The notes beneath the pieces are model-generated. The model made no database searches, was not told where the DNA came from, and worked only from the letters and a program-made list of their open reading frames with translations. 57,339 nucleotides of DNA from positions 1 through 57,339 of the forward strand of contig CACZPI010000092.1 in NCBI GenBank assembly GCA_902783005.1, read 5' to 3'. The first letter of the stretch is position 1. Every line of letters begins with the position of its first letter. The stretch is from an uncultured Ruminococcus sp. GTDB lineage: Bacteria; Bacillota; Clostridia; Oscillospirales; Ruminococcaceae. Of this stretch, positions 9,256 through 13,891 are shown piece after piece. Made by a program: the position numbers and the translations under genes.

Positions 9256-10599
9256 ATGGAACCCATTTCACTTGACAGAATCGCAGAAAGACTGGGTACG
9301 CAGACCCCGGTACACACGGACATCACGGTGCTGAGCACCGATACCCGTGACCTGCCGGAGGGCTGTCTGTTCCTTGCGCTGCGGGGAAAGAATTTTGACG
9401 GACACGATTTCGTCGGCAAGGCCATTGAAGCCGGTGCCGTCGCTGCCGTGACCGATACACAGGTGGGGGACTATCCCTGCATAATAGCTGCCGATACCGG
9501 GCAGGCATTGCTCGATATTGCGTCGCTGTATCGTGATACATTCGATATTCCGGTTGTCGGCGTCACCGGCAGCGTGGGAAAAACCACCACCAAGGAGCTT
9601 TGCGCCTGTGTACTCTCACAGAAGTACAACACCCTGCGCACGGCCGCCAATCTCAACAACGAGATCGGATGTCCCAAGACGCTGCTTGGCCTGACAAAGG
9701 AGCACGGTGCGGCAGTCATCGAAATGGGCATGAACCATTTCGGTGAGATCTCCCGCATGAGCCGCTGCACAAAGCCGACCGTGGCGGTCATCACAAATAT
9801 CGGCTTTTCCCATGTCGAGAATCTCGGCTCGCAGGAGGGCATCCTGAAGGCCAAGCTCGAAATGCTCGAGGGCATGGCGGAGGATGCACCGCTTGTCACC
9901 AGCGCGGATGACAAGCTGCTTGCGCCGCTGAAAAATACGCTGACCCGTCCGGTCTACACATTCTCCACCCAGGGCAATCCTGCCGATGTATCGGCCGAGG
10001 AGATCAAGGAGGAGAACGGCGTGACCACCTTCACCATTGTTCATGGTGAAGAGCGCCTGCTTGCAGTCCTGCCGGCAGTGGGTGAGCACAATGTCAAGAA
10101 TGCGCTTGCCGCCTATCTGGTCGGAAAGCTCTGCGGCATGGAGGATCAGGAGATCCTGGTCGGCCTGGCTGATTACGAGCCGACCGGCAACCGCCAGAAT
10201 ATCAAGGAGCGGAATGGACAGACTGTGATTGCAGACTGCTACAATGCAAGCCCCGATTCCATGCGTGCGGCACTCGGCGTACTGGCAAGCCTGCCGTGCG
10301 AGGGCAGACGCATTGCCGTGCTCGGTGATATGCTCGAGCTGGGTGAAATGAGCCGGGAGCTGCATGAGCGCGTCGGACAGATGGTCACGGATGCCGGGAT
10401 CGACCTGCTTTTGTGCTACGGCGAGGCATCGCAGGCCATTGCGGACACAGCAGATGTGCCCGCCTACCATACGAATGACAAGGTCGCACTCACCGAACAC
10501 CTGCGGGAGACTGCCAAGGCCGGTGACTGCGTGCTGTTCAAGGGAAGCCACGGAATGCATCTCGAGGAAGTCATCGAGGCGATCTACGGGGCAGTCTGA
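9256..10599 (+). CDS. murF: UDP-MurNAc-tripeptide:D-Ala-D-Ala ligase MurF
   Basis: MurF adds D-Ala-D-Ala to the UDP-MurNAc-tripeptide, the last cytoplasmic step before lipid I. The 447-residue protein shows the N-terminal MurF fold (LSTDTRDLPEGCLFLALRG), the P-loop G105-SVGKTT, NNEIGCPKTLL, the EMGMNHFGEI motif, and NRQNIKERNGQTVIADCYNA with LGDMLELG in the C-terminal domain. AGGAGG precedes the ATG by 7 bp. The stop overlaps the ATG of the next gene by one base (TGATG), suggesting translational coupling to the MraY-like protein. Confidence 0.96.
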   Translation: MEPISLDRIAERLGTQTPVHTDITVLSTDTRDLPEGCLFLALRGKNFDGHDFVGKAIEAGAVAAVTDTQVGDYPCIIAADTGQALLDIASLYRDTFDIPVVGVTGSVGKTTTKELCACVLSQKYNTLRTAANLNNEIGCPKTLLGLTKEHGAAVIEMGMNHFGEISRMSRCTKPTVAVITNIGFSHVENLGSQEGILKAKLEMLEGMAEDAPLVTSADDKLLAPLKNTLTRPVYTFSTQGNPADVSAEEIKEENGVTTFTIVHGEERLLAVLPAVGEHNVKNALAAYLVGKLCGMEDQEILVGLADYEPTGNRQNIKERNGQTVIADCYNASPDSMRAALGVLASLPCEGRRIAVLGDMLELGEMSRELHERVGQMVTDAGIDLLLCYGEASQAIADTADVPAYHTNDKVALTEHLRETAKAGDCVLFKGSHGMHLEEVIEAIYGAV

Positions 10600-11510
10600 T
10601 GCCGGTCTGGCTGCAGCTTGCCGCGGCGCTGCTCGCAGGACTGGCAGCGGGCATCATGGGGAAGGCTTTCATTCCGTTTCTGCGCCGCGCCCGCTGGTGT
10701 GAGCCGCTGACAAAGAAGCAGGAAGATGAGGAGGCCTCCGGCGAGCAGCTTCGCCCGAATCTGGGCGGGGTGCTGCTGTGCTTCGGGATCCTGGCGGGCA
10801 TCTCGCTGGGATTCGCCCTGTTTCAGACCGCTGTCCGCACGGAGCTCCCGGAAAAGGAATACCTTGCCGGACAGAAGCAGCTTTTGCTGCTGCTCGGGCA
10901 GGGAGGAATCCTGGCACTGGGCGGCTTCATTGTGGATGTTCTGCGGATCCGGCGGCGTCTGCTATATAAGGTACCGCTCTGGATGCAGGGGCTTGCCGTC
11001 TATCTGGTGACGCTCGGCATGCAGACGGCGCTGCAGGAGGAGCCCTCGCTGCTCCGGACACTGTATGTGGCAGTCTGCTGGATGCTGATGCAGGGAATGG
11101 AAGAAACCGACGGCGGGATGCTTGCAGTGGGAACGGTGCAGCTGTTGTGCATTGCCGTTCTGATGCTGGCAGGCATGCTGTATCTGCCGGCGCTGTATGC
11201 GCTGGTATGTGCGGGGGCATGCATGGGATGCATGGTCTGGTGCCTGCATCCGGCGAAATGCCGCTTCGGGAGTACAGGCAGCTTTCTGCTGGGCGGCACG
11301 GTGCCGCTGCTTCTGCTGATGACACAGGAATGGCAGGCATGTGTGCTGCTGATGGCAGTGTGCCTGGTGAATGCGCTGCCCCGGCTGCTGCGCAGGCCTT
11401 CGCTTGACGGAAGCCTTGCGGAGAGCGGGATGCAGCCGCTCGGACGTATTGCCGTATTTGCCGGCGCGGCGGCCGTAACCGGTGCCGTGACGCTGCTGGC
11501 AGTGCATTGA
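10599..11510 (+). CDS. Degenerate MraY-like membrane protein (probable pseudoenzyme) at the mraY locus
   Basis: A 303-residue polytopic protein lying between murF and ftsW, where mraY normally sits. Recognisable MraY remnants are the first helix with FIPFLRR, PNLGGVLL (family: PTMGG), GFIVD at 109-113 (family: GFIDD), TDGG at 170-173 (family: NLTDGLDG) and GSTGS at 224-228 (family: GDTGS). So the first Asp of the DD pair, the second Asp of TDGLDG and the Asp of GDTGS are missing, and the HHH loop is absent. The reading frame is intact and closely coupled to murF, so the protein is probably made but unlikely to synthesise lipid I. It may be a structural or regulatory paralogue. Confidence 0.7.
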   Translation: MPVWLQLAAALLAGLAAGIMGKAFIPFLRRARWCEPLTKKQEDEEASGEQLRPNLGGVLLCFGILAGISLGFALFQTAVRTELPEKEYLAGQKQLLLLLGQGGILALGGFIVDVLRIRRRLLYKVPLWMQGLAVYLVTLGMQTALQEEPSLLRTLYVAVCWMLMQGMEETDGGMLAVGTVQLLCIAVLMLAGMLYLPALYALVCAGACMGCMVWCLHPAKCRFGSTGSFLLGGTVPLLLLMTQEWQACVLLMAVCLVNALPRLLRRPSLDGSLAESGMQPLGRIAVFAGAAAVTGAVTLLAVH

Positions 11511-11539: not shown

Positions 11540-12751
11540 ATGAAACACAAACAGAAGGAACCCAAGCCAAAAAAGCAGCGGATGCATGTCCGCGTCGGCG
11601 GCACGAATCTGGCATTTACGCTGACGATCCTGATTTTGCTGGGCATGGGCATCGTGATGATGTTCTCGGCCAGCTACGCCATTGCGATCAATGAGGGCAA
11701 GGACGGATATTATTACGCGCTGCGCCAGGCAGTCTTTGCCGGCGTGGGACTGATCGCCATGATCGGAATGTCCTTTTTCGACTATCACCAGTTCCAGAGG
11801 CGCGGCGTGGCATTGCTGCTGTACCTCGGCAGCATTGTACTGCTGATTCTGGTCTATATCATCGGTACCGACCTCGGCACCGGATGTAAACGATGGATAC
11901 GATTGCCGTTTACGACATTCCAGCCGTCAGAGCTGGCGAAATTCGCCATCGTGATCCTCTTCGCATTCCTCATCAACCAGAATTTTGACCGGATGAAGAA
12001 GGCGACCGTCGGCACCATTCCGTTTGCGCTGCTGCTTGGTGCGGTCGTGGCACTGGTTCTGCCGGAGCCGCATCTGTCCTGCTCCATCCTGATCTGCCTG
12101 ATCGGCGTTACGCTGATGTTCGTCGGCGGTGCCAGATGGTGGCATATCACGATCGTCGGCCTGATCGGCGCTGCGGTCATGGGTCTGTTCCTGCTCTACC
12201 TCATCAAGGTCAAGGGCGTCGGCTACTTTGAGACCCGTATCGACAACTGGCTCGATCCGTTCAACAGCACCGACGAAAAGGGAAGCTGGCAGACCCGCCA
12301 GTCTCTCATTGCCATCGGCTCGGGCGGCCTGTTCGGACTCGGCCTGGGCGAATCCCGTCAGAAATATATCTACCTCCCCGAGGCGGAGAATGACTTTGTC
12401 TTCTCCATCGTCTGTGAGGAGCTGGGACTTGCCGGCGCGATCATGATTATCCTGCTGTTCGTGCTGCTGGTCGCACAGGGCTTTTCCATTGCAGCGCACT
12501 GCAAGGATCGCTTCGGCATGCTGATCGCGATCGGCTTTACGCTGCAGATCGGATTGCAGGCCTTTATCAATATCGGTGTTGTCAGCGGCCTGCTGCCGAA
12601 TACCGGTATCAGTCTGCCGTTCTTCAGCTACGGCGGTACGGCACTCATCATGCAGCTTGCGGAAATGGGCATCGTTCTGAATATCTCCCGTCCGCGTGAG
12701 ATCGTCGAGCCTGTGCGTTCCGTGCGCAAGGCAGAGCCGGAGCAGGCATAA
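11540..12751 (+). CDS. ftsW: SEDS-family peptidoglycan glycosyltransferase FtsW
   Basis: A 403-residue integral membrane protein with about ten membrane segments after a basic N-terminus. SEDS proteins polymerise lipid II into glycan strands together with a class B PBP, here the 5436 gene. Family signatures are FSASYA in the first helix, FQPSELAKF, the large loop with the SLIAIGSGGLFGLGLGESRQ motif, FSIVCEELG, and the C-terminal LPFFSYGGTALIMQL. I chose ATG 11540 because AAGGGAGG is just upstream. No murD lies between it and the mraY-like gene, unlike most clostridial dcw clusters. Confidence 0.93.
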   Translation: MKHKQKEPKPKKQRMHVRVGGTNLAFTLTILILLGMGIVMMFSASYAIAINEGKDGYYYALRQAVFAGVGLIAMIGMSFFDYHQFQRRGVALLLYLGSIVLLILVYIIGTDLGTGCKRWIRLPFTTFQPSELAKFAIVILFAFLINQNFDRMKKATVGTIPFALLLGAVVALVLPEPHLSCSILICLIGVTLMFVGGARWWHITIVGLIGAAVMGLFLLYLIKVKGVGYFETRIDNWLDPFNSTDEKGSWQTRQSLIAIGSGGLFGLGLGESRQKYIYLPEAENDFVFSIVCEELGLAGAIMIILLFVLLVAQGFSIAAHCKDRFGMLIAIGFTLQIGLQAFINIGVVSGLLPNTGISLPFFSYGGTALIMQLAEMGIVLNISRPREIVEPVRSVRKAEPEQA

Positions 12752-12766
12752 GAAGGGGGATCCTGA

Positions 12767-13891
12767 ATGAAAGTATTACTTGCAGGCGGCGGCACCGGCG
12801 GGCATATCAATCCCGCGCTTGCCATTGCCGCGATCATCCGGCAGCATCGTCCGGATACGGAATTCCTGTTTGCGGGAACGCCGAACCATATGGAGGCAAA
12901 GCTCATTCCGCAGGCAGGCTACAAGATCGAATTTATCAAGGTCGAAGGGTTCCAGCGCAGCTTTACCCCTGAGAACATCGGCCGGAATATCAAGGCCGTC
13001 TGGTACCTGGCATGGTCGGGTGCGCGGGCCAAGCAGATCATCCGGGAATTCCAGCCGGACATTGCCATCGGCACCGGCGGCTATGTGGCAGGCCCCGTCA
13101 TCCGCATGGCAGCGCGAATGGGCATTCCGACGGCGATCCATGAGCAGAATGCCTACCCCGGCGTGACCAACAAGCTCCTTGCCAAGGAGGTCAGCCATGT
13201 GATGCTGACTGTGGAGGATGCGCTGAAATATTTCGAGCCGGGAATCAAGTACACTGTCACCGGCCTGCCCGTCCGTGAGGAGCTGCTGCACAAAAACAAG
13301 GCAGATGCCCGCCGAGAGCTGGGCTTTGACGATGCCTTCACCATTCTGTCCTTCGGCGGCAGCCTTGGTGCGGGTGCCATCAACGAGACTATGGCCGAGG
13401 TGCTGCGGTGGCACACCTCCAAGGGACTGCCGGTCAACCACATCCACGGCTACGGCGGCATGGGACGCGATACCTTCCCGCAGAAGATGCAGGAGTACGG
13501 CATTCCCATGAAGAACGACCGCATCCGCATCACTGAATACATCAATGACATGGACACCTGCATGGCAGCCGCCGATCTGGTTGTCTGCCGCTCCGGCGCG
13601 AATGCGCTTGCAGAGCTTGAAGCAATGGGCAAGCCGTCCATTCTGATCCCGTCCCCGATCGTGGCCGGCAATCACCAGTATCACAATGCGATGGTGCTTG
13701 GCAATGCCGGTGCCGCGCAGGTCATTGAGCAGAAGAATGTCACGAATGAGGATATGATCTCCCGCGTCGAGGCGCTGTACAACGATCCCGACAAGCTCCG
13801 GAGCATGGCACAGAATGCGGCTTCGCTTGCGGTGCGGGATACGGAGGAGCGTATCTGGAGCGTGATCGAACAGCTCATTCCCAAGGCATAA
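12767..13891 (+). CDS. murG: Lipid II synthase MurG
   Basis: This GT28 enzyme transfers GlcNAc from UDP-GlcNAc to lipid I at the inner membrane face. The 374 residues include the first G-loop GGGTGGHINPA, the second glycine motif FGGSLGAGAIN, GYVAGPVI, EQNAYPG, and the donor-binding RSGANALAELEAMGKPSILIP region. It lies 15 bp after ftsW with AGAAGGGGG upstream of the ATG. A functional MurG here makes a working lipid I synthase elsewhere in the genome all the more necessary, given the degenerate MraY. Confidence 0.97.
   Translation: MKVLLAGGGTGGHINPALAIAAIIRQHRPDTEFLFAGTPNHMEAKLIPQAGYKIEFIKVEGFQRSFTPENIGRNIKAVWYLAWSGARAKQIIREFQPDIAIGTGGYVAGPVIRMAARMGIPTAIHEQNAYPGVTNKLLAKEVSHVMLTVEDALKYFEPGIKYTVTGLPVREELLHKNKADARRELGFDDAFTILSFGGSLGAGAINETMAEVLRWHTSKGLPVNHIHGYGGMGRDTFPQKMQEYGIPMKNDRIRITEYINDMDTCMAAADLVVCRSGANALAELEAMGKPSILIPSPIVAGNHQYHNAMVLGNAGAAQVIEQKNVTNEDMISRVEALYNDPDKLRSMAQNAASLAVRDTEERIWSVIEQLIPKA

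Follow-up and report, generated by a model that had tools for sequence, protein, structure and literature searches.

Pseudoenzymes that are kept as scaffolds or regulators constitute a known general class of proteins. The protein described here resembles them in that its catalytic residues are gone and selection on it has been kept. Its closest described relative is canonical MraY (TIGR00445; PDB 5jnq, 4j72, 8g01), with which it shares homology over most of its length, the same slot in the dcw cluster, the P..GG of loop I and the PAK..GxTGS frame, and from which it differs in the loss of the first Asp of the DD motif, one Asp of DGxDG, the Asp of GDTGS and the HHH motif, and in scores below the curated cut-offs of both profiles used. 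According to one study, residues D98, D99, D174, D231, H289 and H290 of Bacillus subtilis MraY are catalytically important (PMC5039524), and in two publications MraY is described with MurG, MreB and the Mur ligases, loops I and V being likely partner sites (PMC4929429, PMC5039524). A further relative is a divergent group found in Ruminococcus and Lachnospiraceae records, characterized by the motifs DD, NCxDGVDG, MGDAGS and HDH, for which we use our own label, type II. It belongs to the MraY superfamily, as the slot protein does, and has complete motifs and a predicted MraY-like fold; it differs in belonging to another subfamily, in occupying its own locus and in lacking TPTMGG. Among the titles and abstract openings listed in a search of the PubMed Central literature, which includes few subscription papers, neither an MraY pseudoenzyme nor type II is described.

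The window, i.e. the whole stretch of DNA analysed, comprises 57,339 nucleotides from an uncultured Ruminococcus sp. The original prediction held that the protein in its mraY slot is a degenerate MraY, and proposed either a dedicated pseudoenzyme with an active mraY elsewhere in the genome or lipid I synthesis by altered chemistry. Here, the slot gene, its relatives and the remaining MraY superfamily proteins are compared across 38 genomes of the window's genus and 197 genomes of the family, three of which are from that genus.

Results

The mraY slot of the dcw cluster

The features of the locus are given below in window coordinates; counts out of 28 refer to full-length copies from the genus.

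9256..10599, + strand: murF, directly upstream of pseudo-MraY, with a one-base overlap with its start
10599..11510, + strand: pseudo-MraY, 303 aa, a degenerate homologue of MraY that occupies the mraY slot of the dcw cluster
10752..10769, + strand: RPNLGG, codons 52-57, remnant of the MraY loop-I motif TPTMGG; P53 and G57 invariant (28/28)
10923..10937, + strand: GFIVD, codons 109-113, remnant of GFxDD; first Asp gone, second retained (28/28)
11106..11117, + strand: TDGG, codons 170-173, what is left of TDGxDG; a single Asp remains of two
11268..11282, + strand: GSTGS, codons 224-228, what is left of GDTGS; the Asp that binds Mg is replaced, and neither Gly varies
11385..11444, + strand: place of loop V, codons 263-282; no HHH
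11540..12751, + strand: ftsW, directly downstream of pseudo-MraY, named from sequence and gene order
12767..13891, + strand: murG of the dcw cluster, named from sequence and order; its homologues adjoin ftsW at other loci

The reading frame of the slot gene is intact, and the single base that it shares with murF belongs to the murF stop codon. The longest ftsW ORF starts with TTG at 11507, within the end of pseudo-MraY, and the ATG at 11540, behind GGGAGGG, is the likelier start. At the edge of the window (positions 3-734) lies a threonine-rich ORF with a C-terminal dockerin-like repeat, recognized by eye.

The window protein scores under the cut-offs of both Pfam PF00953 (21.5 bits, cut-off 27) and TIGR00445 mraY (31 bits, cut-off 192), and a search for related loci with this protein as the query found no relative. 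A profile was built from 28 homologues. Of the 33 matching genomes of the genus, five did not contribute to the alignment: G018 and G006, whose copies (L022 and L034, respectively) are truncated at contig ends, and G001, G007 and G012, for which the genus search gave no locus. With this profile, five MraY sequences rank first in the PDB (5jnq with an E-value of 5.5e-17, then 8tlu, 8g01, 4j72 and 9zno), far ahead of human DPAGT1 (E 0.038). Profile match and gene order bear out the claim of an MraY-like protein in the mraY slot; by these two kinds of evidence, the slot protein is an MraY homologue by descent, located in the dcw slot between murF and ftsW. As to the ten-helix fold of MraY, an AlphaFold model of the window protein from its single sequence was poor, with a pLDDT of 52.7.

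The first Asp of DD is replaced in all 28 full-length genus copies, by 11 different residues, and so is the Asp of GDTGS, by ten (Q, R, S, T, N, A, H, E, C and K). Every copy retains the second DD Asp, an Asp-Gly of the DGxDG motif and the two Gly of GxxG; the invariant residues are P53, G57, D113, D171, G172, W214, G224 and G227. The window protein has one DG only rather than both Asp of TDGxDG, and its PxHHH loop is absent. The losses proposed for the first DD Asp, the GDTGS Asp and HHH are thus confirmed, with the remnant motifs at the positions predicted, and the two Asp substitutions recur in the related Ruminococcus genomes in which it had been suggested to look for them. The original prediction was half right about TDGLDG: one Asp is lost, but three alignments put the DG of the window protein on the second DG of DGxDG, which makes the first Asp, and not the second, the more probable loss. 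Two of the 28 relatives (L032 and L033) read VDGADI, with a second Asp nearby. A sequencing error or frameshift is ruled out by losses common to 28 genus genomes, and a shift of the motifs, as opposed to their loss, by the three alignments, which leave unsure which Asp of DGxDG was lost.

None of 54 distinct degenerate slot sequences, three of them cut by contig ends, has TDGxDG, PxHHH or an aligned GDxGS, and GxxDD is retained in five; D113 and D171, invariant within the genus, are not retained across genera. The P..GG of loop I is aligned, as judged by eye, in 21 of 27 slot proteins; a pattern count gives 22 of 27, one of which (G145) has the pattern elsewhere in the stretch. Slot proteins of the R. 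albus group (L134, L144, L159, L160, L161, L163, L164, L285 and L286) share additional residues within the DGxDG loop. From the residues that are missing, the slot protein is almost certainly catalytically dead.

The original prediction also listed murD as missing. It is absent from the cluster, but not from the genome: an intact copy lies on another contig (G000:C62:735-2066; 337.7 bits, cut-off 211.95), G000 being the window's own genome. The proposed genome check for murC likewise found it intact on a separate contig (G000:C74; 408.2 bits, cut-off 335.1). Loss of murD as part of the change in MraY is thereby ruled out.

Distribution and selection in the genus

The slot gene is present in 33 of the 38 genus genomes and in all 12 whose completeness is 90% or more and contamination 5% or less. 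The five genomes without a match are 57-79% complete; one of them (G031) carries a C-terminal fragment that adjoins ftsW where a contig ends, and the remaining four yielded no FtsW either. None of the 28 full-length copies contains an internal stop; the match in L022 has one TAA near the contig end, and a TGA in L008 is the gene's own stop codon.

Ten pairs hand-picked as close relatives were used to estimate dN/dS, among them two that involve the contig-end copies L022 and L034. In the nine with usable dS (dS is saturated in G016-G033), the slot gene has a dN/dS of 0.08-0.23. The corresponding ranges are 0.04-0.10 (murF, seven pairs, this gene being unavailable in two), 0.06-0.13 (ftsW) and 0.035-0.16 (type II). 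For individual pairs the slot value is up to 2.4 times that of murF, 3.5 times that of ftsW and 5.7 times that of type II. Since these ratios are far below 1, the slot gene is under purifying selection, with a constraint clearly relaxed relative to its neighbours. The combination of lost catalytic residues and purifying selection that defines a pseudoenzyme is thus observed, and the earlier view that an intact frame overlapping murF is maintained holds across the genus.

Conservation was compared between the slot family and 27 canonical relatives, groups of differing breadth in which only the ranking of regions is meaningful. On this scale the slot family falls below the canonical one in the DD loop (0.48 vs 0.87), loop V (0.48 vs 0.87), the DGxDG loop (0.59 vs 0.85) and residues 123-168 (0.41 vs 0.69) and 231-262 (0.53 vs 0.71), and exceeds it in residues 1-30 (0.74 vs 0.61), 63-92 (0.58 vs 0.42) and 181-200 (0.56 vs 0.48).

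A complete MraY relative elsewhere in the genome

PF00953 has two hits in the genome that the window comes from: besides the slot protein, it picks out an ORF of 346 aa on contig C115 (G000:C115). The latter, a type II protein, carries GYLDD, NCADGVDG, MGDAGS and HDH. The recommended search for a second MraY with intact motifs therefore succeeded in part: a relative with complete motifs exists, but it reads HDH rather than HHH and belongs to a different subfamily. Type II is present in 36 of the 38 genus genomes, 31 of which have it together with the slot gene. None of these proteins exceeds the TIGR00445 cut-off of 192 bits, their scores being 77-102 bits (76-95 bits for three members scanned separately). 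The motifs are retained in thirty aligned genus copies, and all four motif patterns in 109 of 114 distinct type II copies from all sources; three of the five exceptions read HDQ or HDE for HDH.

A type II profile matches MraY in the PDB with an E-value of 6.4e-27 and DPAGT1 with one of 3e-4, and individual members score better to MraY than to WecA (81 vs 33 bits for L001, 76 vs 38 bits for L154). The type II protein of R. albus KH2T6, modelled from 41 sequences with a pLDDT of 90.5, retrieves 23 MraY chains first in Foldseek (TM up to 0.78 by query length, E 7.9e-13), with human DPAGT1 close behind (TM 0.68-0.72), so the fold alone cannot settle the substrate of type II.

A PF00953 scan of 27 genomes included 25 without canonical MraY, and in all 25, drafts included, type II is accompanied by no other match than, at most, the slot protein. 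It is the sole PF00953 match in four genomes with an empty slot, in three Butyrivibrio and in Lachnospira pectinoschiza. As lipid I synthesis is essential and no other intact PF00953 protein is present, we infer by elimination that type II is very likely the lipid I synthase. Type II was not found in five drafts with a degenerate slot, two from the genus (G012, 91% complete, and G024, 86%) and three from outside it (G101, 99%; G139, 88%; G203, 85%).

Close to type II on G000:C115, and in the same orientation, is a gene for a PBP2/MrdA-like transpeptidase (L297:3059-4792 -, L297:7517-8554 -). A location in an mreBCD elongation locus was considered in view of this gene and ruled out for G000 by the other neighbours, which are maf, a sugar transferase gene, alaS, a leucine-rich-repeat gene and a dockerin-bearing papain-like gene. 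A PBP2/MrdA homologue is within the fetched flank at 18 of 30 genus type II loci, on the opposite strand in 16 of the 18.

Recurrence in the family and evolutionary history

Among the 197 family genomes, TIGR00445 matches 161 over its cut-off and 28 at weaker scores only; the eight without a match at an E-value of 1e-5 are G038, G044, G075, G106, G112, G134 (95% complete), G156 and G181. The 28 with weaker matches comprise the three from the window's genus, two with MraYs cut by contig ends (G131 and G157) and 23 others from 13 genera. A degenerate protein precedes ftsW in 19 of these 23. In 16 of the 19 it is flanked by murF on the side away from ftsW; for G066, G149 and G176 the sequence retrieved stops too early to show that side. 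The degenerate slot protein is retained in 11 other genera, including a cultured representative, Ruminococcus albus strain KH2T6 (L183, in G238, which has the same coordinates and scores as G193 and was taken as one genome with it). In the remaining four (L279, L281, L282 and L289; genera g63 and g74), there is no slot gene, and ftsW directly adjoins or overlaps murF. Of the 23, 20 gave a type II match, and G101, G139 and G203 gave none.

All four motifs are present in 65 of 69 distinct canonical MraY sequences (64 from the family and five, L247-L251, from other genomes; fetched loci only, taken best-scoring first), and the exceptions are two cut sequences, one with masked bases and that of G078. 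The last (L127) reads GNLGS for GDTGS, its other motifs being intact, in a genome that also holds type II; it perhaps represents the first step of decay. G078 is one of five of the 161 canonical genomes with type II, together with G055, G105, G170 and G182, so the presence of type II does not force decay at once.

History was taken from a tree of FtsW, as the tree of slot proteins joins long branches. Its 71 rows comprise 28 with canonical MraY (every second locus; L092 and L117 are from one genome), five with both canonical MraY and type II, 22 with a degenerate slot, 12 of the 28 from the genus and four with an empty slot. The tree calls for seven changes between an intact and a non-intact slot, at least three of them forced on well-supported branches, three changes that could also be one gain and two losses. 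An independent-pairs test, with two pairs on supported branches, gave no significance. More than one separate inactivation is likely, reversals or a single ancestral inactivation being possible alternatives.

The window's genus forms one clade with a support of 100. Its neighbours, G064, G171, G162, G042 and G153 (joint support 88, below the starred level), have canonical MraY and no second TIGR00445 match. Beyond the genus, the slot profile scores highest with canonical MraYs, those of G064, G223, G171, G056 and G162, which is expected if the slot gene decayed in place. In a tree of type II with 65 of 114 rows (14 from the genus, all 18 others from the family and every second of 66 named records), the genus copies group, with support, with type II of other Ruminococcus. 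Transfer of type II between lineages is possible.

Discussion

The explanation that we favour, as the probable though far from certain one, is that of a replaced mraY retained as a pseudoenzyme scaffold. The slot gene would be the vertically inherited canonical mraY of the lineage, and the divergent type II enzyme would have taken over lipid I synthesis; the old copy would then have lost its catalytic residues and kept its MraY homology, its place between murF and ftsW and selection. Most likely, and most simply, the slot protein would now serve in the membrane as a scaffold or docking subunit without catalysis: made beside MurF and FtsW, it would hold MurF, MurG, FtsW or type II together at the division site. 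This agrees with the first alternative of the original prediction, a dedicated pseudoenzyme with MraY elsewhere, for which the complete-motif relative, genus-wide conservation and purifying selection all speak. The scaffold role itself is evenly balanced: it would fit the partners described for MraY and the remnant of loop I in most slot proteins, and against it, loop V, one of the proposed partner sites, is lost in the slot protein, and the absence of the gene from the four genomes of g63 and g74 means that the function of the slot is dispensable there. The five drafts with a degenerate slot and no type II match, and the relaxed constraint on the slot gene, also count against the overall explanation.

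The main rival to a scaffold is a direct partnership with type II, in which the slot protein would be a regulatory or structural partner, a dead subunit that binds the live one in a hetero-oligomer. Co-occurrence of both genes in most genus genomes, the relatively good conservation of slot residues 1-30 and 63-92 and the description of MraY as dimeric in one paper (PMC4929429) are in keeping with it. Such a partner is not generally needed, however, given that type II stands alone in L. pectinoschiza, three Butyrivibrio and the four empty-slot genomes, and we regard this reading as rather unlikely.

Still less probable is a slowly decaying relic without function. The faster evolution of the slot gene than of its neighbours, the many different residues at its dead positions and its complete loss in two genera are what a relic would display; the low dN/dS in all nine pairs, the 28 full-length copies without a stop and the retention of the gene in 11 other genera count against it.

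Altered chemistry, by which the slot protein would still be an enzyme and which was the second alternative of the original prediction, is highly improbable. The invariance of D113 and D171-G172 in all 28 genus copies speaks in its favour, but these Asp residues are not kept across genera, the position of the Mg-ligand Asp holds ten different residues within one genus, HHH is gone and a complete MraY relative exists elsewhere in the genome.

Two further readings are weaker still. Retention of the slot gene as a mere translational bridge from murF to ftsW would account for where the gene starts: at 27 of the 28 loci from the genus the start, chosen by pattern, is -4 to +3 bases from the stop of murF (the sole exception, L013, has a value that reads 328). 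But coupling would not preserve an amino-acid sequence and four genomes manage with murF abutting ftsW, so this is hardly credible. It is equally hard to accept that type II makes another glycolipid and that lipid I comes from an unknown enzyme: the low TIGR00445 scores of type II, the bacterial sugar transferase gene near it in G000 and a fold match that alone does not tell MraY from DPAGT1 would allow this, yet no other intact PF00953 protein occurs in any of the 25 searched genomes that lack canonical MraY, and type II is closer by score to MraY than to WecA.

If a replaced mraY has indeed been retained as a pseudoenzyme scaffold, an essential antibiotic target has been swapped out in these rumen and gut bacteria and its dead predecessor kept for another job. 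An MraY that selection retains despite its lost active site would allow the structural role to be told apart from the catalytic one, which a knock-out in ordinary bacteria cannot do. More tentatively, lipid I synthesis may have been split in several lineages of gut and rumen Clostridia, probably separately, into chemistry by type II from its own locus and division-site docking by the MraY of the dcw cluster. An essential enzyme would then have abandoned catalysis without leaving the machinery, and MraY would have a second, non-catalytic job, open to study apart from its reaction. As type II falls below the curated mraY cut-off, annotation of Ruminococcus, Butyrivibrio and Lachnospira genomes may mistake the inactive copy for MraY or leave the step without a gene.
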